Positions 1,339 through 22,300 of a stretch of 22,503 nt of DNA are shown piece after piece (the first letter of the stretch is position 1; every line of letters begins with the position of its first letter). The position numbers and the translations under genes were made by a program. The DNA comes from a virus, in IMG/VR virus record IMGVR_UViG_3300027730_002023, positions 1 through 22,503 of that record; one strand, given 5' to 3'. The notes under the pieces were generated by a model. It saw only the letters and a list, made by a program, of their open reading frames with translations, made no database searches and had not been told where the DNA came from.

Positions 1339-2082
1339 TTAGGACAACATTTCCAACATGATACTCCTGTCACCCTCCCACTTTTTGATTTGTGACCTTG
1401 GAATCCAAAACTCCATCAAACCAATCTCTTCCACTCTTTTGAGGTAGTCCTCACGGTATTGTTCCGCCTGAGACCTGTCGGTGATGTATGGGACCCTCAT
1501 GTGTTTAGAACAAATCTTACCCATACCAGTCAACATTGAGAACTCATCAGTCAAAGTTTTAGCACAACACATACAAACCTTACTACGTTTTACCGTCATC
1601 TTACCTTGGAACTTCACAGCCTTTGGTGATATACCCAACATCTTGGTGATATCAATTAAGGTTGGGTTAAACTCAAGACCGTAAGTCTCTTTGAGTTGTT
1701 GACCAATCTTACGACCAATCAAGATAGTCTCACCAGGAGTCGGAATACGTAGTTTAAGAACCTTGTCTTTGTATTCCTCCTTGTCAATCTGAGCAATTGC
1801 TGCTGTGATTTGTTTGTCAGTCAAAGTTCCCCACTTTTGGAACTTCTCGGCGATGTCCTTTACGAACTTACTTTCCCCTGTGTATTCTACGATACGTTTG
1901 AGTTCGGGACGCTCATCTACAGTAATCTTGGTTGGTTGACTGTTAAGACATTTTTCTGCGGCTTCCATTTGTTTTGGTGTTAAACGTCCCCATTGGTCAA
2001 GGGAATCTTTCATTTTGTTGATAAAACTGTTGTTTCCTTGGTAGTTACGAACTTTCTCGGTGATTTTGATGGTGTCTGTCAT
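1339..2082 (-). CDS. Phage protein with two helical repeats and a DUF6011-like Zn motif
   Basis: A 247-residue protein. Two copies of a helical repeat can be aligned at residues 20-46 and 73-99 (FINKMKDSLDQWGRLTPKQ and FVKDIAEKFQKWGTLTDKQ). The C-terminal third has a cysteine/histidine cluster: CMCC at 170-173, then TGMGKICSKH with C191 and H194. This matches the small zinc-ribbon pattern of DUF6011 (C-x2-C, L-x-D-x2-S, G-x-G-x-x-C), which is common in phage and plasmid proteins next to helical modules. A nucleic-acid or protein-binding role is likely, but no enzyme is indicated. The start is the ATG at 2082, downstream of a TTG-N19-TATCTTTG promoter. The gene ends in its own terminator, so it is probably transcribed alone. 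Confidence 0.85.
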   Translation of the reverse strand: MTDTIKITEKVRNYQGNNSFINKMKDSLDQWGRLTPKQMEAAEKCLNSQPTKITVDERPELKRIVEYTGESKFVKDIAEKFQKWGTLTDKQITAAIAQIDKEEYKDKVLKLRIPTPGETILIGRKIGQQLKETYGLEFNPTLIDITKMLGISPKAVKFQGKMTVKRSKVCMCCAKTLTDEFSMLTGMGKICSKHMRVPYITDRSQAEQYREDYLKRVEEIGLMEFWIPRSQIKKWEGDRSIMLEMLS

Positions 2083-3098: not shown

Positions 3099-3875
3099 GT
3101 GACCAACGAGAAAATTTATCAATACGTTTTGAAATACTCTTATGTGTTTGACCAAATACCAAACATACTTGACCTTATTACCGTACAAATTAATAAATTG
3201 TGGGAATGGGAGTATGGTGGAAGATTTAGGAAATTTACAAATGATGATGATTCCAAATTTGCAATTATGTTATTTCTACATAGAGAAGGATATTCTTATG
3301 ACCAAATTATTAATAAAGTTAAAAATACTACCGCAATAATCCTTGGTTCCGAAAACGAAGCCCAAATTTCAGATACTTGTGATGAATGCGGTGGAGATGG
3401 TCGTTATGATTGCTCAATGTGTGATGGTAGTTCAACAGTTGAATGTGATGACTGTGATGGAACAGGAGAAGTGGATGGTGAGCTTTGCTCCTCGTGTCAG
3501 GGTGGAGGTGAACTTGATTGTGGTGAATGCGATGGAGATGGTTATAATCAATGTCATGAATGTGATGGAGACGGTGTAGTCGAAAACCCCGACAAAACTA
3601 TGTTTACAACAATAACTTATCTAACCTTCAATCCTGTGATTGCCAACTATTTTAGAGAAAATTTAAATGGTGTTGTTCCCGAAATTTCAAACTCAATTTA
3701 CAATGACTTACATAAATTAGATGAAAGTGATTTTGAAGTTGAATTATTAAACGATTATAAAAAGGTGTCCAATTATGTTATTGAGGTAACTTCAGACCCT
3801 GAGGAATTAACTGAACTAATTTCGGACGCAACTGCCGAAATTGAAAAAAAATACTTATGGATTTTAACGGCATAG
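3099..3875 (+). CDS. Protein with six DnaJ-type CxxCxGxG-like zinc motifs, no J-domain
   Basis: A 258-residue protein starting at GTG 3099 (MTNEKIYQYV). Residues 94-159 hold six cysteine motifs: CDECGGDG (94), CSMCDGSS (105), CDDCDGTG (116), CSSCQGGG (130), CGECDGDG (141) and CHECDGDG (152). Most match the CxxCxGxG repeat of the DnaJ/Hsp40 zinc-finger domain. DnaJ has four such motifs, while this protein has six and no HPD-containing J-domain. Residues 1-90 (LWEWEYGGRFRKF) and the acidic C-terminus match nothing I know. DnaJ-type fingers bind zinc and can hold unfolded peptides, so a chaperone-like or scaffold role is possible. The downstream gene overlaps it by 19 bases, so the two are probably co-translated. 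Confidence 0.8.
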   Translation: MTNEKIYQYVLKYSYVFDQIPNILDLITVQINKLWEWEYGGRFRKFTNDDDSKFAIMLFLHREGYSYDQIINKVKNTTAIILGSENEAQISDTCDECGGDGRYDCSMCDGSSTVECDDCDGTGEVDGELCSSCQGGGELDCGECDGDGYNQCHECDGDGVVENPDKTMFTTITYLTFNPVIANYFRENLNGVVPEISNSIYNDLHKLDESDFEVELLNDYKKVSNYVIEVTSDPEELTELISDATAEIEKKYLWILTA

Positions 3876-4875: not shown

Positions 4876-4946
4876 TGCGATGCCTTGGAATCGAACCAAG
4901 CTATGTGGGCTTATGAGACCCATGGAACACCTTGCCCCCCGCCCGC
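4876..4946 (-). tRNA. Degenerate tRNA-Met(CAT)-like sequence
   Basis: On the minus strand a textbook T-arm is present (CTTGG, loop TTCGATT, CCAAG; 4884-4900). Before it is an anticodon arm TGGGT/GCCCA with the 7-base loop CTCATAA, anticodon CAT (Met). The D-arm can be drawn only weakly (GGGC/TTCC with GU pairs). The acceptor pairs at its three outer positions (GCG/CGC) plus one GU pair, with the inner pairs mismatched. The 3' end reads GCAACTA where GCAACCA would encode the CCA tail. It starts about 5 bases after the stop of the HNH endonuclease gene. It may be a decaying tRNA, a tRNA remnant at an insertion point, or a divergent functional tRNA. A hairpin with a UACG tetraloop lies just beyond it (about 4851-4862). 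Confidence 0.5.
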
Positions 4947-4950
4947 CATT

Positions 4951-5490
4951 TTATAACTTTAAATATCCGTGGTCAAACTCCCAATGATGGTTCGGACAAA
5001 GTCCTACTAAATTATCTTTTGAGTTTATTTCTGTTATCAAGGATTCATCACTGAACGAAGATACAGATTTTATATGACAAACTTGAATGTGTTTATCATA
5101 ACCACAAACTTTACAAGTTTTATCTCCTTTATTTTTTTCATACACATATTGCGCATGTTTTCTAATTTCGGCTCTAAACTTATAATAAATCCCTTTCTTT
5201 TCAAAAAACTTTTTTTTTGTAATTCCATTAAAGAAACTAAATCTTTCGGGTCTTACAATCTCTTTTTTTTCTTCTTTTTGTTTTTTCTCTCTTTCTAAAT
5301 TATTAAACTTAGCAGAACAAGAACTATTACAAAAATATTTTTTTCTTACTTCAGAAACTTTTTGGTTATCATTAACCCTTATTACCTCACCACAAGATTT
5401 ACATATATTTGGTGATTGATAATAATCTTCTAATGATTTTTCTCTTCTTTTTTTATTTCCGATTTCAGCGGCTTTTTGGTATCTGTTCAT
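4951..5490 (-). CDS. HNH endonuclease with N-terminal zinc finger (putative homing endonuclease)
   Basis: A 179-residue protein with two cysteine modules. Residues 30-58 form a treble-clef-like finger (C30-K-S-C33 and C54-NSS-C58), and residues 60-80 are a lysine/glutamate-rich helix. The HNH nuclease is at 126-174: C126-K-V-C129, VCHIKSVSSF with H139, NLVGLCPNHHWEFDHG with N160, C165 and H168/H169. These are the metal-binding and catalytic residues of the beta-beta-alpha-metal fold, which cuts DNA. The position directly upstream of a tRNA-like sequence and the solitary promoter fit a free-standing homing endonuclease. Base composition is more AT-rich than the neighbours, consistent with transfer. 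ATG at 5490 follows a strong promoter. Confidence 0.9.
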   Translation of the reverse strand: MNRYQKAAEIGNKKRREKSLEDYYQSPNICKSCGEVIRVNDNQKVSEVRKKYFCNSSCSAKFNNLEREKKQKEEKKEIVRPERFSFFNGITKKKFFEKKGIYYKFRAEIRKHAQYVYEKNKGDKTCKVCGYDKHIQVCHIKSVSSFSDESLITEINSKDNLVGLCPNHHWEFDHGYLKL

Positions 5491-5505
5491 ATATTATAAA
5501 TATCA

Positions 5506-5537
5506 CAAATATACCGAAAAACCACCACACAACCAAA
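5506..5537 (-). promoter_or_regulatory. Bacteroidota-type promoter of the HNH endonuclease gene
   Basis: On the minus strand, TTTG (5534-5537) is followed after 20 bases by TATATTTG (5506-5513). The ATG at 5490 comes 15 bases later. Confidence 0.85.
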
Positions 5538-5561
5538 AAAATACCTCACAATATATTTTAA

Positions 5562-5631
5562 TGATTACAATCCCACTTCCCCACGGTCACCTATCCACGT
5601 CATGCGCTGGTTGTACCAGCGGGTGTAATCA
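5562..5631. other. 70-base structured element closed by an 8-bp stem
   Basis: TGATTACA (5562-5569) pairs perfectly with TGTAATCA (5624-5631). Inside, CGCTGGT (5604-5610) pairs perfectly with ACCAGCG (5614-5620) around the triloop TGT. The remaining 34 bases are G/C-rich against an AT-rich surround. No open frame covers it. It does not fit a tRNA because the T-arm and anticodon arm cannot be placed. The strand is not certain; on the minus strand it follows the small RNA at 5659-5746. Candidate structured RNA, protein-binding site or attachment site. Confidence 0.5.
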
Positions 5632-5658
5632 AATTTTTAAAGAGCTAAACAACATCCG

Positions 5659-5709
5659 ATAAAAAATCCCACAACTTTCTATGTTTTCTCAAACACTCGT
5701 TGTGGGATT
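5659..5709 (-). terminator. Intrinsic terminator of the small RNA
   Basis: AATCCCACAAC (5665-5675) pairs perfectly with GTTGTGGGATT (5699-5709). On the minus strand the stem runs into TTTTTTATC. The 23-base loop is unusually long and contains the pseudoknot partner. Confidence 0.85.
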
Positions 5710-5746
5710 GTGAACCGAGGATTTAACTCCTCTTCTTCCGAGTGTC
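5659..5746 (-). ncRNA. Candidate small RNA (about 88 bases) with own promoter, pseudoknot and terminator
   Basis: A promoter at 5750-5781 predicts a start near 5744-5746. The transcript would begin with ACACTCG (5745-5739), which is perfectly complementary to CGAGTGT (5699-5693) in the loop of the terminator hairpin. That arrangement gives an H-type pseudoknot or a competing long stem. Between them lies a hairpin GAGGA/TCCTC around 5718-5733. It ends with an 11-bp terminator stem and a T-tract. No open frame of useful length starts in it, and the next gene (HNH) has its own promoter. The unit is therefore self-contained: a trans-acting small RNA, a decoy or a riboswitch-like element without a gene. 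No known RNA family is recognised. Confidence 0.65.
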
Positions 5747-5749
5747 TCA

Positions 5750-5781
5750 CAAAGATAAAACAATTTTTTCAAATTGTCAAA
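5750..5781 (-). promoter_or_regulatory. Bacteroidota-type promoter of the small RNA
   Basis: On the minus strand, TTTG (5778-5781) is followed after 20 bases by TATCTTTG (5750-5757). No gene follows within 250 bases, which is the main argument that it drives an RNA. Confidence 0.8.
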
Positions 5782-6653: not shown

Positions 6654-8062
6654 TTTTCCTTTTTACTTTCCTGAATTTTTTCCTTTAAGACTTTAAAGAA
6701 CTCTTGTCCAATCATCTTAACAAATTTGATGTATGGTGCGTCATCTCTTTCAGGGTCATATCTATATGGTCCTGATGGTGGTCTTTGTGCTCTACCCAAA
6801 TAATTAAGTCCCGAAATATTGGTAATACATTTGTGTCCACCTGAATTGGCTTGAATCAAATCCCAAGCATTTACACCAATCTTATCCAACAATTTCATTT
6901 CAGGTTCACTTAACTCTGAGAATGGTTTGTCAATGATTGTTTTTAAACTATCTAATATTTGTTCTCCATTATCCATCATCATAATCTTACCACCATAAAT
7001 GGCATCAAAATCTTTGAATGTGAATCCAACTGATTCTGTACCCATACCTGATTCTGCAATGTATTTGATTGTTGATAATGGAATTGTTCTATCTTGAAGT
7101 TGTGCTTTCCACTTATTCAAAACCTCGTCTTTAACTTCTCCAAGATTTACACCTTTGAGCTCTCTATCTTTTTTGAATGGATTACAAGATGCTTGTACCA
7201 AACCCAAAGGCCACATGATAATCAAAAAGTCCGCCTCAGGATTGTTTCTAAAAGGAGTATATCTGTCGTAAGAACCAGTACCTTTCAAAGTTCCCATACC
7301 ATATTGAAGAATGATTCCATCTTCAACTTTCACATTTCGGTGATTTGCCATTGAGTCCATATAGTCTTTGGAATTTCTTTGGAGTCTTTCAGGTGTCTCG
7401 CGAGTGTTCACACTCATCCAAGTCTTTATGTTATTAAGAATTGAATAAAGTGACGGCTCAGAGTCCATCACTAAACTCTCTAAGAAACCTTTTTTGTTTT
7501 TAAACGCCAAGAGTAATTTGTTAGTCACTAACCCTAACAACATTTTGTTTCTCGCCAAACCTTTTTCCTTGTCTAATCTAAATAAAAAGTTAACAACTTC
7601 TTTTGTTGTTAAGTCATATTTTGCAAAATCAGCAGAGTCAACAGTAGAAATCAACAGAATGTCTGAACTTGGGAACAATTCTTTTGGTGAAATTATTTGA
7701 GATATAGTCTCAACATTTGAACGGGCTTGTCTAAATGATTTTGAAGCATCTTTTTCAGCACCTACTTGAGTATCGTGGTGGTCTGTATGAATAACAAACA
7801 TCGGTTTACCGTGAGCAAAATCTACTAACACGGGCATTACATCACCACTAGCATCAGGTTTCTTTACTGCAAACTCTTTTTCACCATATTGGATAACCTC
7901 AGAATCTACAACATCAATACCATTATCCTCAAGGTATTTCTTCATAGCAATTGCTGTGGTAACACCATCTAAATCTTGGTGAAAATATATTTTAGCCTTT
8001 GGGTACCTTTTTGCCAAAGCATTAATATCACGTAAACCCGATTCTTTAATAATTTTTTTCAT
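6650..8062 (-). CDS. DHH family phosphoesterase
   Basis: A 470-residue protein with the DHH superfamily motifs: HQDLDG at 28-33 (motif I), a D81-F-A-H strand end, HTDHHD with D94-H95-H96 (motif III), and a C-terminal DHHA1-like substrate-binding part with SGGH at about 407-410. The superfamily includes RecJ exonuclease, NrnA-type nanoRNases/pAp phosphatases, cyclic-dinucleotide phosphodiesterases and pyrophosphatases. All use Mn2+/Mg2+ to hydrolyse phosphodiesters or phosphoanhydrides. The substrate is not clear; cyclic-dinucleotide or short-oligonucleotide degradation would be useful to a phage. I chose the ATG at 8062 because it forms a TGATG overlap with the preceding stop; an ATG 9 bases upstream (8071) is also possible. 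The N-terminus MKKIIKE resembles those of two neighbouring products. Confidence 0.9.
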   Translation of the reverse strand: MKKIIKESGLRDINALAKRYPKAKIYFHQDLDGVTTAIAMKKYLEDNGIDVVDSEVIQYGEKEFAVKKPDASGDVMPVLVDFAHGKPMFVIHTDHHDTQVGAEKDASKSFRQARSNVETISQIISPKELFPSSDILLISTVDSADFAKYDLTTKEVVNFLFRLDKEKGLARNKMLLGLVTNKLLLAFKNKKGFLESLVMDSEPSLYSILNNIKTWMSVNTRETPERLQRNSKDYMDSMANHRNVKVEDGIILQYGMGTLKGTGSYDRYTPFRNNPEADFLIIMWPLGLVQASCNPFKKDRELKGVNLGEVKDEVLNKWKAQLQDRTIPLSTIKYIAESGMGTESVGFTFKDFDAIYGGKIMMMDNGEQILDSLKTIIDKPFSELSEPEMKLLDKIGVNAWDLIQANSGGHKCITNISGLNYLGRAQRPPSGPYRYDPERDDAPYIKFVKMIGQEFFKVLKEKIQESKKEN

Positions 8063-15094: not shown

Positions 15095-16084
15095 ATGGCG
15101 TTTATTGACTTAGTAATTCAAGATTTTAATGAAGGTGATTATGACCTTTTAGAAACCGCATTTAATGGGGATGTCAACACATTTTTTAATTATGTTAATA
15201 AAAAAGGTAAATTTGAAGAGATAATTGCCGATGATTATAATCATAACGATTATGAAAACGATTACATTCTGTGGGTTTCTAATAACAAACCAGAAATTTT
15301 CCGTAAACTTATTGAAGATAAATTATCCGATGTAACATACATTGATGGTAAATGGTATTTTATAACATCTGATAGAGGGGATTTATCCAAACTTTATTGT
15401 GATGATAGAGATATTGGTCGTAACACAATAGAATCTATATTGTCAGGTGAATATGATAGTTCTGATTATTGGGATTCAGGAATAGATGTCTATGACAACG
15501 TAATTGATGATTTAAACGACCAAAACAAACAAACTTTAATTGAAAGATTATTAGAGGAATTGAAAGATGAAGAAATCTTACCATCAACAGATTTACTAAA
15601 AGAAATTGCATCGTCTCAAGGTCATGATGAGTATGTATCTTTAGACACTGAAACATTAAGTAGAATAATCAATGATAAAAAATCTATTAAAGAAATCTTA
15701 CCCGATGATTTAGAAAGTGAGTTGGTGAGTTTATACTGGAGTGCCTATAATGTGGCATATGAAGATGAACTCTACGAATCTATTTGGAGTGAACTTGATT
15801 CTATATTTGAAGGTAATGGTGAATGGACTCAAACACCTTCCCCTTATGATAAAAATAAATTTACCCAAAAATTTCAAATACCTTTTATAGATTTAGAGTC
15901 AATTGTAAAAGATTATCTTGAAGATAATCTTAGATATAAAGATAGAACCTTGGAGTATTGGGGTAATATTATTAATATAATTGATGATACACATGAGTGT
16001 TTAAGAGTTAGAGTACCTGAATATGCAGATTGGACTGAAACCAAACAAAATATCAATTCTCTTTACAACGATTACATTTCTTAA
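15095..16084 (+). CDS. Acidic phage protein of unknown function, 329 residues
   Basis: ATG at 15095 (MAFIDLVIQDFNEGDYDLLE), 15 bases after the preceding terminator. It is strongly acidic, with clusters such as YNHNDYENDYILW, SGEYDSSDYWDSGIDVYDNV and AYEDELYESIWSEL. It is mostly helical with one beta segment near VTYIDGKWYFITSD. No motif or family is recognised; D/E-rich aromatic proteins of this kind are frequent in large phages and may mimic nucleic acid. The stop overlaps that of the convergent fibre gene by 4 bases (TTAA), so there is no room for a terminator outside the genes. Confidence 0.75.
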   Translation: MAFIDLVIQDFNEGDYDLLETAFNGDVNTFFNYVNKKGKFEEIIADDYNHNDYENDYILWVSNNKPEIFRKLIEDKLSDVTYIDGKWYFITSDRGDLSKLYCDDRDIGRNTIESILSGEYDSSDYWDSGIDVYDNVIDDLNDQNKQTLIERLLEELKDEEILPSTDLLKEIASSQGHDEYVSLDTETLSRIINDKKSIKEILPDDLESELVSLYWSAYNVAYEDELYESIWSELDSIFEGNGEWTQTPSPYDKNKFTQKFQIPFIDLESIVKDYLEDNLRYKDRTLEYWGNIINIIDDTHECLRVRVPEYADWTETKQNINSLYNDYIS

Positions 16085-19000
16085 AGTAATCTTTTTTCTT
16101 TCGCCTTTACTACAAGTTTTTGAGCTCTGTCTTCAATTGAATTGATAATGACTTCTTGCTCTTTCAAAGCCTCAATACACACGGCAATCATCTCTTTGTA
16201 CTTCATGGTGTAGTTGGTCTCTTCACTACCGAATACAAGTTCAGGGAAATATGGTAAAACTTCTTGAGCAATGAAACCAATGTTTTTGTGTCCAAGTTTT
16301 TCTTTATCATCCCAATTATAATAGAATTCAACACCACGAATTTTAATTAAACTTTCAAGTGCAGATTCAATAGGTTCGATATTTGTCTTTAATCTAATAT
16401 CAGATGGTCCTTTAGGTCCTGTAGCACCTTGAGCACCTTGTGGTCCTGCAGAACCTGTAGCCCCTGTAGCACCTTGAGCGCCAAAACCACTGCCCGCCTT
16501 TCCTTGAGCCCCTGTAGCACCTTGAGCGCCTCCAGCACCAGGTCCTTGAGAACCTTGAGCACCTTGTGAACCTGTAGTCGGATTTGGAGCACCTTGAGCT
16601 CCTTGAGCACCAGCTCCTTCAGAAGGGAAACCTTGAGCACCTTGCGAACCAACAGCACCTTGAGCTCCTTGTCCTCCTTGTGGTCCTTGAGCACCTTGTG
16701 GTCCTTGTGAACCTTGGCCACCCGCAGCACCTGTTGAGCCACCTCCACCCTGAGAACCTTGTCCCCCTTGTGTACCCTGAGCACCTTGTCCTCCTTGTGA
16801 ACCTGTGGCACCTCCACCACCAGTACCACCTTGCGAACCTTGTCCTCCTTGTGAACCTTGTGAACCTTGAGCACCTGTGGAACCACCACCACCCTGAGAA
16901 CCTTGTCCTCCCTGAGAACCTTGCGAACCTGTGGCACCTTTACCTCCACCGCCACCTTGTGAACCTTGTCCTCCTTGAGAACCTTGTGAACCTGTGGCAC
17001 CTCCACCACCAGTACCACCTTGTGCACCTTGACCTCCTGTCGGACCTGTGGCACCTTTACCTCCTTGAGAACCTTGTCCTCCCTGAGAACCTTGTCCTCC
17101 TGTCGGACCTGTGGCACCTTTACCTCCTTGTGAACCTTGTCCTCCTTGTGAACCCTGACCTCCTGTAGACCCTTGAGAACCTTGAGCTCCTTGACCTCCT
17201 TGAGAACCTTGAGCTCCTTTACCACCTTGAGAACCTTGTGAACCTGTGGCACCTCCACCACCAGTACCACCTTGCGAACCTTGTCCTCCTTGTGAACCTT
17301 GTGAACCTTGAGCACCTGTGGAACCACCACCACCCTGAGAACCTTGTCCTCCTTGTGAACCTTGTGCCCCCGCACCACCTTGTGAACCTTGTCCTCCTTG
17401 AGCTCCTTGACCTCCTTGAGAACCCTGAGCACCTTGTCCTCCTTGAGTACCTTGTGAACCTTGAGCACCCTGGCTACCAACAGCACCTAACGAACCTTGA
17501 GCACCCTGACCACCCTGAGCACCTTGGAAACCTTGTCCTCCTTGAGCCCCTTGATTACCAGTAGCTCCTTGCGAACCGACAGCTCCTTGAGAACCTTGTC
17601 CTCCTTGTGAGCCTTGTGAACCAACCGCTCCTTGCGAACCTTGTCCTCCTTGAGTACCTTGTCCTCCCTGAGCACCTTGTCCTCCCTGAGCACCTTGTCC
17701 TCCTTGAGTACCCTGAGCGCCTTGCCCTCCTTGTGAACCTGTAGCTCCTTGAGCACCTTGTCCTCCTTGGGTACCCTGAGCACCTTGTCCTCCTTGTGAA
17801 CCTTGTGAACCTGTGTTACCTTGGGAACCTTGAGCTCCCTGTACTCCTTGACCTCCTTGAGCCCCTTGAGCACCCTGAGCACCCTGTCCTCCTTGTGAAC
17901 CTTGAACTCCTTGACCCCCTTGAGCTCCTTGTGAACCTGTATTACCTTGAGTACCTTGAGTTCCTTGTGCACCTTGTCCTCCTTGAGAACCTGTTGCTCC
18001 TTGAGCACCTTGTCCTCCCTGAGTTCCCTGAACACCTTGACCACCTTGAGCTCCTTGTGAACCTGTATTACCTTGAGTACCCTGTCCTCCTTGAGCTCCC
18101 TGTCCTCCTTGAGCCCCAACTGCTCCTTGGGAACCTTGACCTCCTTGTGAACCTTGAGCACCTTGACCTCCTTGAGCCCCAACTGAACCGGGACTACCTT
18201 GTGAACCTTGTCCTCCTTGAGTACCCTGTCCTCCTTGAGCTCCAACCGCTCCTTGGGAACCTTGTACTCCTTGCGAACCTTGAGCACCTTTTCCTCCCTG
18301 AGAACCTTGAGCACCAACGGCACCTTGCGAACCAACGGCACCTTGCGAACCTTGCCCCCCTTGAGCACCTTGATTACCTGTTGCTCCTTGTGAACCAACG
18401 GCACCTTGAGAACCTTGTCCCCCTTGAGCACCTTGATTACCTGTCGCTCCTTGTGAACCAACGGCACCTTGTGAACCTTGTCCTCCTTGAGAACCTTGTG
18501 AACCTGTATTACCTTGAGCACCAATAGGACCTTGAACACCCTGAGCACCTTTAGCACCTTGAGGACCTACATTACCTTGACTTCCTTGTCCTCCTTGAAA
18601 ACCTTGACCTCCTTGAGTACCTTGAGAACCTACAGGTCCAACAGCACCCTGTGAACCTTGAACACCATCAGCGCCTACCGCACCTTGAGCACCTGTATTA
18701 CCCTGAGAACCTTGTCCTCCTTGAGAACCTTGTCCTCCTTGAGAACCTTGTGAACCTGTATTACCCTGAGAACCTTGAACACCCTGAGCTCCTTGTCCTC
18801 CTTGAGAACCCTGTCCTCCCTGAGTACCTTGAGCTCCTTGTCCTCCTTGAGAACCCTGTCCTCCCTGAGCACCTTGTGAACCTACACCACCAACAGCACC
18901 TTGTGAACCTTGAGTCCCTTGAGAACCCTGCCCTCCCTGAGTACCTTGTGAACCTTGAGGTCCTTTTCCACCTTGGGCACCTTGTCCTCCTTGAGAACCA

Positions 19001-19377
19001 ACATTACCTGTTGCACCTTGTGAACCAACCGAACCTTGTGGACCTGTAGACCCAAAATCACCTTGTTTTCCTTGACCTCCTTGAGTTCCCTGAGCACCCG
19101 CAGCACCCTGAGCACCTGTTGGTCCGGTATTTGTTGTGCCAGCCCAAAGAGCATTATTAACTACAGTACCTGCAGTTGTTGCAATAGTACTAAAAACATA
19201 AAGATTGTTAAAAAATAACCTAAATTTAGGTGAGGTATTAATAACTTTAAAATAAACAGTAGTACTAACTTTCCAATCAAGTACAGCACTGGAGTAAACC
19301 CAAGTTGCCTTAGTATTATTTGTATCATACAACTCAACAGTTGCACTACCTGGTAATATAACGATATCCTTAGCCAC
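16081..19377 (-). CDS. Giant collagen-like fibre protein with C-terminal S74 chaperone domain
   Basis: A 1098-residue protein, GTG start at 19377 inside the end of the upstream fibre gene (8-base overlap). Residues 1-84 are a beta-rich head ([18 protein letters not shown]) with no known family. Residues 85 to about 990 are nearly unbroken Gly-X-Y triplets, mainly [12 protein letters not shown] and GAV, with very little proline. Residues 992-1098 are a peptidase S74 intramolecular chaperone: [38 protein letters not shown], then a helical end. The S-D pair at 992-993 is the expected self-cleavage site, after which the trimerising chaperone is released. Such proteins are phage tail or capsid fibres that contact the host. 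The C-terminal interruptions ([17 protein letters not shown]) lie near residue 930. Confidence 0.93.
16405..19125 (-). repeat. 9-base-periodic collagen-coding repeat array 1
   Basis: About 2.7 kb of coding DNA built from GGN-NNN-CAA-type triplets (plus strand CCTTGAGCA, CCTTGTGAA, CCTTGTCCT). Larger tandem or dispersed copies are visible. The block around TGGCACCTCCACCACCAGTA occurs near 16807, 16994 and 17249. The pair CTGTCGGACCTGTGGCACCT occurs near 17038 and 17101. A roughly 72-base unit with CTTGTGAACCAACGGCACCT recurs between 18310 and 18480. It is prone to slippage and to assembly error. Confidence 0.9.
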
Positions 19378-22300
19378 CTATTTTTATACTTAAATCTTTA
19401 AGAAAATTATTCAATACTTCAACTCTTTTTTGGTTTTCAATTAATGCCGATATGCCAACCGAAACCAATAGCTCATATTGTAAATTCTTATAACCATATT
19501 TATCTGTCCAAACTAAATCTGGATATTTTTCTTCAATTTCTTGAGCAATAAATCCAAGGTTTACACCTGTAATTAGGTATTTGTGTTCTGGTAAATAATC
19601 TGACAATTGAGGAATGTCCTCAACCCAATCAAATTTAACACCTCTCATGCTAACAATGTTTTGTCTAACGTCTGTAAGAGGTTTAATGTTTGTTTTATAT
19701 CTGGCATCTGATGGTGGTCCTTGAGCACCTTTAGCACCTTGAGTACCCTGTGGTCCTTTACCACCTTGAGCACCTGTACCTCCTTGCGGTCCTCTTTGGC
19801 CTTGAGAACCCTCGGCTCCTTGAGCTCCGTTACCACTCGGTCCTTTTGTACCAGTGGCACCTTGAGAACCTTGTGCACCTGCCGGCCCTTTTGGACCTTG
19901 AGCACCTTGAGCACCTGGTGTTGGAGGACCTGTGGCACCAAGAACACCTGTAGTTCCTTGAGCCCCTTGGTTTCCTGCAACTCCTGTATTTCCCGCGGCT
20001 CCTTGAGCACCTTGTGTGGATGACGCAGCACCTTGAGTTCCTTGGGCTCCTTGAGCCCCTTGTACCGAACTTTGAGCACCTTGGGCTCCTTGAGTTGTGC
20101 TATTAGCTCCCTGAGCTCCTGTATTACCTTGAGCACCTGTTGCACCTTGAGTAGAACCTTGAGCACCTTGAGCTCCTGTTGAACCTCCACCACCTTGTGA
20201 ACCTTGAGCACCGGTGACACTACTTTGAGCACCTTGAGCTCCTTGACCTCCTTGAGAACCTTGACCTCCTTGTGCACCTTGTACAGAACTTTGAGCTCCT
20301 TGAGCACCTTGTCCTCCTTGGGAACCTTGACCTCCTTGTGCACCTGTACTAGCACCTTGAGCCCCTTGTGAACCCTGAGCCCCTTGGGCACCTGTGTTAC
20401 CTTGTGCACCGGTACTAGCACCTTGAGCTCCTTGTGAACCTTGTGCACCTTGGGCACCTGTATTACCTTGAGCACCGGTACTAGCTCCTTGAGCACCTTG
20501 GGCTCCTTGAGCACCTTGTTTACCCGTAGCTCCTTGGTCACCTTGGACCGAACTTTGAGCACCTTGAGCTCCTTGTCCACCCTGAGCCCCTTGTCCACCC
20601 TGAGCCCCTGTATTAGCTCCTTGGGCACCTTGAGCACCTGTTGAACCACCACCACCTTGTGAACCCTGAGCACCCGTGACACTACTTTGAGCACCAGTAT
20701 TTCCTTGTGAACCCTGAGCACCTGTTTTTCCTTGAGCACCCGTAACTCCACCTTGAGCACCTTGTGCTCCTTGAGCACCTTGTTTACCAACAGCACCTTG
20801 AGCACCTGTAATTGCTCCTTGAGGACCCTGAGTACCTTGAGCCCCTGTATTACCTGTCGCTCCTTGAGCACCTGTATTACCACCTTGAGCACCTGTGCTA
20901 CCTTGAGTACCTTGAGCTCCTTGAGCCCCTTGGGCTCCCGTATTAGCACCTTGAGCACCTTGTGCCCCTTGACCACCTTGAGCACCTGTCGCTCCTTGAG
21001 CTCCCGTAGTTCCACCTTGAGCACCTGTACTACCTTGAGCACCTGTATTACCCGTCGCACCTTGTGCTCCCGTGGTTCCACCTTGAGCTCCTTGAGCCCC
21101 TTGAGCACCTGTATTACCTGTTGCACCTTGAGCACCTGTGACTCCACCTTGAGCCCCTTGAGCACCTTGTCCTCCTTGAGCACCTGTAACTCCCGTAGCT
21201 CCTGCGGTTCCTCCTTGAGCACCTATATTACCTTGGGCACCGGTATTACCTGTAGCACCTTGTGCACCCTGTACAGAACTTTGAGCACCTTGAGCACCTT
21301 GAGCTCCTTGAGCTCCTGTATTACCTTGGGCACCTTGAGAAGCACCTTGAGCTCCTTGAGCACCTTGAGCACCTGTATTACCCGTAGCTCCTTGAGCACC
21401 CTGAACAGAACTTTGAGCACCTTGAGCTCCTTGAGCACCTTGAGCACCTGTTTTTCCTTGAGCTCCCGTAACACCACCTTGAGCACCTTGAGCTCCTTGA
21501 GCACCTTGTTTTCCGACGGCTCCTTGAGCACCTGTATTAGCACCTTGAGCTCCTTGAAATCCTTGAGCTCCTTGTGCACCCGTACTACCTTGAGCACCTG
21601 TAACACCACCTTGAGCACCTTGAGCACCTTGAGCACCTTGTTTGCCTGTAGCTCCTTGGTCACCTTGAACCGAACTTTGAGCACCCACAGAACCTTGAGT
21701 ACCTTGGGCACCCTGAGCACCTTGTGCACCTGTGTTAGCACCTTGTGCTCCTTGAGAACCTGTTGGTCCCTGAGCACCTTGAGCACCTTGTGCACCTGTG
21801 TTAGCACCCTGAGCACCTTGAGCACCTTTAGGTCCTTGAGCTCCTTGTCCACCTTGAGCACCCGTACTAGCACCTTGTGCTCCTTGAGCCCCTTGTCCAC
21901 CTTGAGCTCCTTGTCCACCTTGAGCACCAGGAGTATCATCCGTACCACCCTGAGTACCTTGTGCTCCTTGAGCACCTTGGGCACCTTGAGCTCCTGTGTT
22001 TGCACCTTGAGCACCTTGAGCACCTATCGGTCCTTGAGAACCTTGTGCACCTGTTGGTCCGATTACATTACTTGCAGTTCCCTGACTACCTTGTGCTCCT
22101 TGAGCACCTGTGTTACCTTGAGCACCCGTGCTAGCACCTTGAGCTCCTTGAGCTCCTTGAGTACCTTGAGCACCTGTATTACCTTGAGCTCCTTGAGTGG
22201 TACTATTAGCACCTTGAGTTCCTTGAGCACCTTGTGCACCCGTTTTTCCTTGGGCACCTTGGACTGAACTTTGAGCACCTTGAGTTCCTTGAGCACCTTG

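Follow-up and report, generated by a model that had tools for sequence, protein, structure and literature searches.

The short RNA encoded on the minus strand at positions 5659-5748 of the window (the whole analysed stretch of 22,503 nucleotides of viral DNA) is probably a leader transcript that ends prematurely and belongs to a phage unit for non-coding RNA, in which the terminator would act as a promoter-proximal attenuator and read-through would supply a tRNA-Met. Comparison of related loci points in this direction through the conservation of the leader, the covariation of its terminator and of a hairpin in the terminator loop, the order leader, boxA, tRNA in relatives and the replacement of tRNA-Met and GOLLD by a cassette in the window itself.

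The leader is preceded by a promoter of Bacteroidota type, TTTG-N20-TATCTTTG (5750-5781, minus strand), which was recognised by inspection and by a promoter scan and consists of TTTG at 5781-5778, a 20-base spacer and TATCTTTG at 5757-5750; the scan alternatively scored the same promoter as TTGACA-N17-TATCTT. A -7 box TAnnTTTG is described as part of the sigma-A consensus of Flavobacterium psychrophilum (PMC9723704), and since the promoters are of this type, they suggest a Bacteroidota host for these uncultured phage contigs. From a start predicted near 5746-5744, an RNA of about 88 nt would be made, whose fold of -29.6 kcal/mol compares with a shuffle mean of -15.9 kcal/mol (z -4.3; matched by 0 of 200 shuffles). 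It ends in an intrinsic-terminator hairpin (5661-5709, minus strand) with an 11-bp stem (5709-5699/5675-5665), a loop of 23 nt (5698-5676) and, directly after the stem, a run of six U (5666-5661). All these parts had been proposed in a sequence-only reading and were confirmed on the minus strand. The statement that no RNA family can be recognised was likewise borne out, as a search of the whole window with Rfam 15 (4227 families) gave nothing at or above gathering score, and the leader locus yielded five sub-threshold matches at E up to 10, the best with an E of 0.9.

The same reading had pointed out a 7-base match between the 5′ end of the RNA, ACACTCG (5739-5745, minus strand), and CGAGTGT (5693-5699, minus strand) inside the terminator loop. 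The two arms are indeed perfect complements, but only six of the seven bases of CGAGTGT lie in the loop, since its C takes up the uppermost stem position on the 5′ side of the terminator. Folding additionally predicts a first hairpin, GAGGA-GUUAAA-UCCUC (5717-5732, minus strand), the helix of which is 96.2% paired in close homologues; at this position L028, L157, L161 and L174 (L numbers denote loci) have a different hairpin, and the other distant leaders folded have none. A further hairpin, GUGUUU-GAGA-AAACAU with a GNRA tetraloop (5681-5696, minus strand), sits within the terminator loop and had been overlooked. It comprises six pairs and uses four bases of the CGAGTGT arm, and this loop hairpin and the proposed pseudoknot are mutually competing folds.

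In related phages the leader mostly stands in front of a tRNA gene. The 117 loci examined, which include overlapping pieces of some contigs, contained 38 distinct upstream sequences, one of which belongs to a further tRNA that shares its leader with another; this left 37 units, which are distinct in their last 200 bases and not independent of each other. A hairpin leader was found upstream of an initiator-like tRNA-Met in 31 of these 37 units. Hairpin and terminator are missing in L128, L131, L163, L173, L175 and L183, where a short leader is followed by boxA, an element and the tRNA; because these six do without the hairpin, the position of the leader appears to serve the tRNA with or without it. 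A consensus promoter at the leader was found by script in 29 units and by eye also in L157, L159, L161 and L174, with promoter variants in L139, L163, L169 and L173. After the start of the leader, 33 of the 37 units showed no promoter-like match. The remaining four are L157, L159, L161 and L174; here the match closest to the tRNA is located inside the leader, and a transcript from it would start in the 3′ arm of the terminator and thereby bypass it. Unpaired bases 1 and 72 are a mark of initiator tRNA. These two bases are unpaired in 26 of the 28 distinct tRNAs (in one of the 26 out of register), and the phage tRNA-Met(CAT) look initiator-like. Rfam searches of eight relatives reported tRNA and GOLLD only. 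In L136 (4588-5352), a cluster of Glu, Val, Phe and Lys tRNAs, separated by unexplained stretches, lies behind a terminator-like hairpin and the boxA-like sequence GGTTCTTTGAAAT.

Between leader and tRNA, the relatives carry GTTCTTTAAAAT or a variant of it a few tens of bases after the leader, followed by tRNA-Met(CAT) either directly or after another element. The pattern used by the script fits 31 of the 37 tRNA-Met units, and variants were recognised by eye in L085, L087, L089, L132, L157 and L169. In the window, a pattern search located the boxA-like sequence GCTCTTTAAAAA at 5634-5645 (minus strand); the longer form GCTCTTTAAAAATTT agrees with GCTCTTTAACAATTT of E. coli rrnB in 14 of 15 bases. 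A strict pattern, GYTCTTTRAAAW, occurred 13 times in nine phage records compared with five times for the reversed control. Eight of the 13 occurrences are at the leader locus; the other five had neither a tRNA nor an Rfam RNA within about 3.4 kb each.

The element that in some relatives separates boxA and tRNA-Met is a second conserved and apparently structured one (TGATTACACCCGCTGG...GTAATCA; 5562-5631, minus strand, in the window), which emerged from the comparison of loci. Its core is ACCCGCTGG..CCAGCGCATGACGTGGATAGGTGAC, and its outer stems differ. It is present in the window, L131, L145, L151, L168, L171, L173, L183 and others, in total as 12 distinct sequences (one of them partial) from 38 loci including the window, some of these being overlapping pieces of one contig. 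Eleven sequences were aligned, and Rfam gave no match for the element.

In the window itself neither tRNA-Met nor GOLLD follows the leader. Their place in the nearest relatives is occupied by a gene for an HNH endonuclease (4951-5490, minus strand; Pfam HNH_2, E 1.7e-8). Next to it lies a degenerate tRNA-like sequence with CAT at the anticodon place (4876-4942, minus strand), which reached 20 bits with the Rfam tRNA model, the gathering score of which is 29, and in which ARAGORN called no tRNA. The closest counterpart is L018, which has the same leader sequence as the window down to the U-run and a far flank that is identical over 407 bases from 4806 on. Between the shared flank and the leader, L018 contains boxA and tRNA-Met, with GOLLD on the same record between them. 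The same interval of the window contains a boxA and an element that both resemble those of L171, L181 and L183, the HNH gene and the degenerate tRNA-like sequence. The comparison thus indicates that an HNH cassette (4876-5660, minus strand) replaced tRNA-Met and GOLLD and left the leader behind, and because the leader is identical to that of the GOLLD-bearing L018, the loss looks recent. This replacement is the reason why the RNA of the window appeared self-contained. It is a conserved small unit that has a promoter and a terminator of its own and so matches that earlier description, but among the relatives the RNA forms the leader of a unit with boxA and tRNA-Met. Similarly, the absence of a gene behind the promoter is true for the lineage of the window, but not for the relatives, in which boxA and tRNA-Met stand there and, in 24 of 35 records, GOLLD beyond them.

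GOLLD (RF02032), a giant RNA of phages that assembles into a 14-mer cage and has no known function (PMC12286853), was found in 24 of the 35 records with this locus (relatives and window together), in 23 of them above the cut-off. The window gave no match to the GOLLD covariance model. No GOLLD was found in 11 records (labelled G), namely the window and its twin G001, six records that, judged by their lengths, stop about 1 kb or less from leader or tRNA (G011, G020, G021, G028, G031 and G034), and G018, G027 and G032, in which more sequence follows and GOLLD seems to have been lost. For nine loci the interval from tRNA to GOLLD was inspected (in L018 and L171, the first 400 bases past the tRNA), and a loose boxA pattern was present in all nine and a sigma-A-type promoter in seven. 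Because of these own promoters in seven of nine intervals, GOLLD would mostly not depend on the leader alone, and the leader therefore need not control GOLLD. In L132 (about 7190-7310) and L198 (about 1383-1480, minus strand), the GOLLD units show a promoter, a hairpin (with a U-run in L132) and then boxA. The leader also persists at loci in which GOLLD or tRNA was not found, as seen in the window, L134 and L167; L139 and L177/L185 keep the tRNA, and the L180 group has no tRNA-Met call. That the GOLLD of env-38 lies 'downstream of Met-tRNA' has already been published (PMC12286853). Literature searches on GOLLD and boxA found no account of the leader or of boxA, which the original and the mycobacterial GOLLD papers could nevertheless mention; those pairing GOLLD with boxA returned plant papers only, judged by title, and those on attenuator leaders of phage tRNAs returned nothing.

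We prefer attenuation as the explanation because the tRNA of most units has a single recognisable promoter and is separated from it by the terminator. Polymerase would start at the promoter, make about 85 nt and usually halt at the intrinsic terminator, so that the short RNA is set free. A polymerase reading through would next transcribe boxA, and NusB-NusE should be recruited there in the manner of rRNA leaders; binding of NusB and NusE to BoxA is described for these proteins (PMC4807359). After boxA, the initiator-like tRNA-Met would be transcribed in the relatives, and GOLLD would come next, usually with a promoter and boxA of its own. As boxA is placed after the terminator, it should be unable to relieve it and would act on polymerase that has already passed. 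The terminator would then set or regulate the amount of tRNA-Met; transcription, the efficiency of termination, NusB binding and regulation are inferred. Against an attenuator speak the promoter-like matches inside the leaders of L157, L159, L161 and L174 and the broken U-run of L159 and L161. No antiterminator or ligand was identified for the leader. In the window, a DnaJ-type zinc-finger protein is encoded at 3099-3875 (plus strand), the zinc-finger part of which matches phrog_127, 'anti-termination protein Q-like', with an E of 1e-4; as a factor that might relieve the terminator it is only a weak lead. In L044, L074 and L078, a similar-looking protein is encoded close to the locus.

The pR′-tR′ leader of phage lambda, source of the lambda '6S RNA', has its own promoter and gives a short terminated RNA, and the late genes are reached by read-through. 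The leader described here is similar in that it is a phage leader with its own promoter, in that its short terminated RNA resembles a free-standing gene and in that a downstream unit would be reached by read-through. Unlike in lambda, this unit is a tRNA-Met with GOLLD nearby and not a set of late protein genes, and no Q protein or qut site was identified; the likeness drawn here is one of arrangement. With the E. coli rrnB leader it shares a boxA that is nearly identical in the window, a hairpin upstream of boxA and an untranslated structured RNA downstream. It differs from an rRNA leader in the full intrinsic terminator upstream of boxA and in its product, a phage tRNA-Met. With the GOLLD system it shares the phage loci and the neighbourhood of tRNA-Met and GOLLD, the latter already in print (PMC12286853), but the leader lies outside the Rfam GOLLD model and upstream of the tRNA, and the window has no GOLLD. 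The arrangement is therefore best called comparable to pR′-tR′ joined to an rrn-type boxA, and membership of either is not claimed.

The leader is conserved among related uncultured phages, with its promoter kept or varied. In 25 of 28 loci (L002-L026) a close copy adjoins a NUDIX gene; the sequence of L027 stops at this gene, and L028 and L029 carry a distant copy elsewhere in the locus. Divergent copies were recovered by gapped DNA patterns. A covariance model built from an alignment of the 11 distinct close copies was searched against 78 sources, mostly loci collected via the neighbouring DHH gene (the best 80 of 565 relatives), and found further distant leaders at about 20-36 bits, mostly just upstream of tRNA-Met; since only the best 80 of 565 relatives were taken, the family may be larger than sampled. 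Matches of the model in L044 (9956-10032) and, at about 9 kb, in L180, L182 and L184 were recognised by eye as a hairpin with T-run behind GOLLD and were dropped. Gapped-pattern matches in six stretches of bacterial genome contigs, by eye without promoter, stem or U-run, were taken as chance; some other matches stood in unrelated sequence and were not used, and one narrower pattern recovered only copies already known. A blastn search of the locus against named phages returned short matches only (E 4 in the 20 matches listed, from 35 records). The DHH gene matched four unannotated huge-phage records, at the two best places of which (L190 and L191) Rfam found nothing and the leader model gave a single weak match (14.4 bits, E 0.07). 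The GOLLD of L137 had a weak match to one of the huge-phage records, at another place (105 bases, 72.6%).

This conservation could also reflect a trans-acting small RNA, i.e., a terminated transcript that binds phage or host RNA or protein via its conserved loop and 5′ end, a role that we regard as rather unlikely. It would account for the 45 of 97 invariant columns in the alignment of close leaders, a degree of primary-sequence conservation that is more than pairing or a bare terminator would need. Likewise, among 23 representative leaders (7 close and 16 distant), all of which have the lower terminator stem, a hairpin with a four-base loop is found inside the terminator loop of 21, with GAGA in 19, and such a GNRA-capped hairpin might be a binding site. 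The lineage of the window has kept the leader despite having lost tRNA and GOLLD, and persistence of this kind is not what a purely cis-acting role would predict unless the losses are recent. That a hairpin leader precedes the tRNA-Met of 31 of the 37 units argues against a role in trans, however, and in the window the loss does look recent, given the identity with the leader of L018.

The structure of the leader is backed by two-sided changes. Among the 11 close copies, pairing amounts to 98.3% in the terminator stem, where four of the 11 pairs have two-sided changes, and to 100% in the loop hairpin, where one of the six pairs has a two-sided change and three have a one-sided change. Compared with 500 shuffles, the whole structure was matched by none on three measures and by one on a fourth and did not exceed them in 'further pair types' (358 of 500). 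Such statistics favour the structure, given that the 11 sequences are relatives of one another and also served to derive the fold. The U-run is broken in two of the 31 hairpin leaders, L159 and L161.

According to the sequence-only reading, a pseudoknot between the 5′ end and the loop knots or rivals the terminator, so that termination would depend on a ligand or partner. The covariance analysis proposed there supports the terminator stem, but none of the seven pseudoknot pairs shows a compensatory, two-sided change among the 11 sequences. The arms are paired in all 11, with ACACTCG invariant; six of the seven pairs never vary and the seventh changes from G-C to G-U in three sequences, which is why these pairs carry no information instead of being contradicted. 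The helix between 5′ end and loop has 8-9 pairs in the 7 close leaders, reached by at most 1.3% of shuffles, and a second test with two kinds of shuffle gave p 0.005-0.031 in six of them (0.06 and 0.09 in L056). When the nascent RNA was folded without the 3′ arm of the terminator, this helix was the minimum-energy fold in six of the seven, but that of L078 showed the loop hairpin instead, a covarying structure which the pseudoknot excludes. For the 16 distant leaders, the helix has 3-7 pairs and lies within chance (lowest value 0.08; p 0.12-1.0 in the second test). Combined over all 23 leaders, p values were 1.3e-4 and 5.3e-4, to which the close leaders contributed most; when each group was represented by a single leader, they were 0.08 and 0.03. 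The nascent pairing probability, a value that includes all pairs between the first bases and arm or loop, is high in several distant leaders too. A general rule by which every leader pairs its 5′ flank with terminator arm or loop (P 0.98-1.00 in L132, L139 and L167) was dropped because p against shuffles was 0.12-1.0 outside the close group. As the shuffle tests were passed in the close and not in the distant leaders, the pairing is plausibly a property of the clade of the window and not of the whole family. Conditional termination is plausible, and no ligand or partner was found; as an explanation of the leader in general, the pseudoknot appears improbable. Within the attenuator reading, the nascent 5′ end could, in close relatives of the window, pair at first with what will become the terminator loop, and this might tune termination.

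That the hairpin is a boxB-like recognition site, which together with boxA forms an rrn- or nut-like antitermination signal with an incidental U-run, is very doubtful: the order is that of the E. coli rrnB leader, where the hairpin upstream of boxA is called boxB, most leaders have a GNRA loop, some GOLLD units also show a hairpin and then boxA and the U-run is broken in L159 and L161, but stem and U-run of most leaders are what a strong terminator requires, six units do without the hairpin, and no N-like protein was noticed in an analysis not specifically aimed at one.

Extending the attenuator reading, we tentatively suggest, as a possibility short of probable, that phages, probably of Bacteroidota, possess units resembling rRNA operons, made up of a sigma-A promoter, a leader with a switchable terminator, boxA, an initiator-like tRNA, a further boxA and GOLLD, the RNA of the nanocage. 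The leader would be the control valve, and in one clade its 5′ end and the GNRA hairpin, as rivals for the same bases of the loop, would form a two-state switch between small RNA and initiator tRNA. Signals like the boxA of rRNA operons do precede the initiator-like tRNA and GOLLD, and ahead of the tRNA stands a conserved leader with a terminator, which suggests that some phages may apply antitermination of the rRNA kind to their own structured RNAs. This would offer a concrete handle on the timing of tRNA and GOLLD synthesis and on the host factors involved. The swap of a cassette, in turn, can strand a leader that then resembles a new small-RNA gene.

Elsewhere in the window, two very long collagen-like repeat proteins with GAQG/GSQG repeats and non-repeat C-terminal parts are encoded at 16081-21688 (minus strand).
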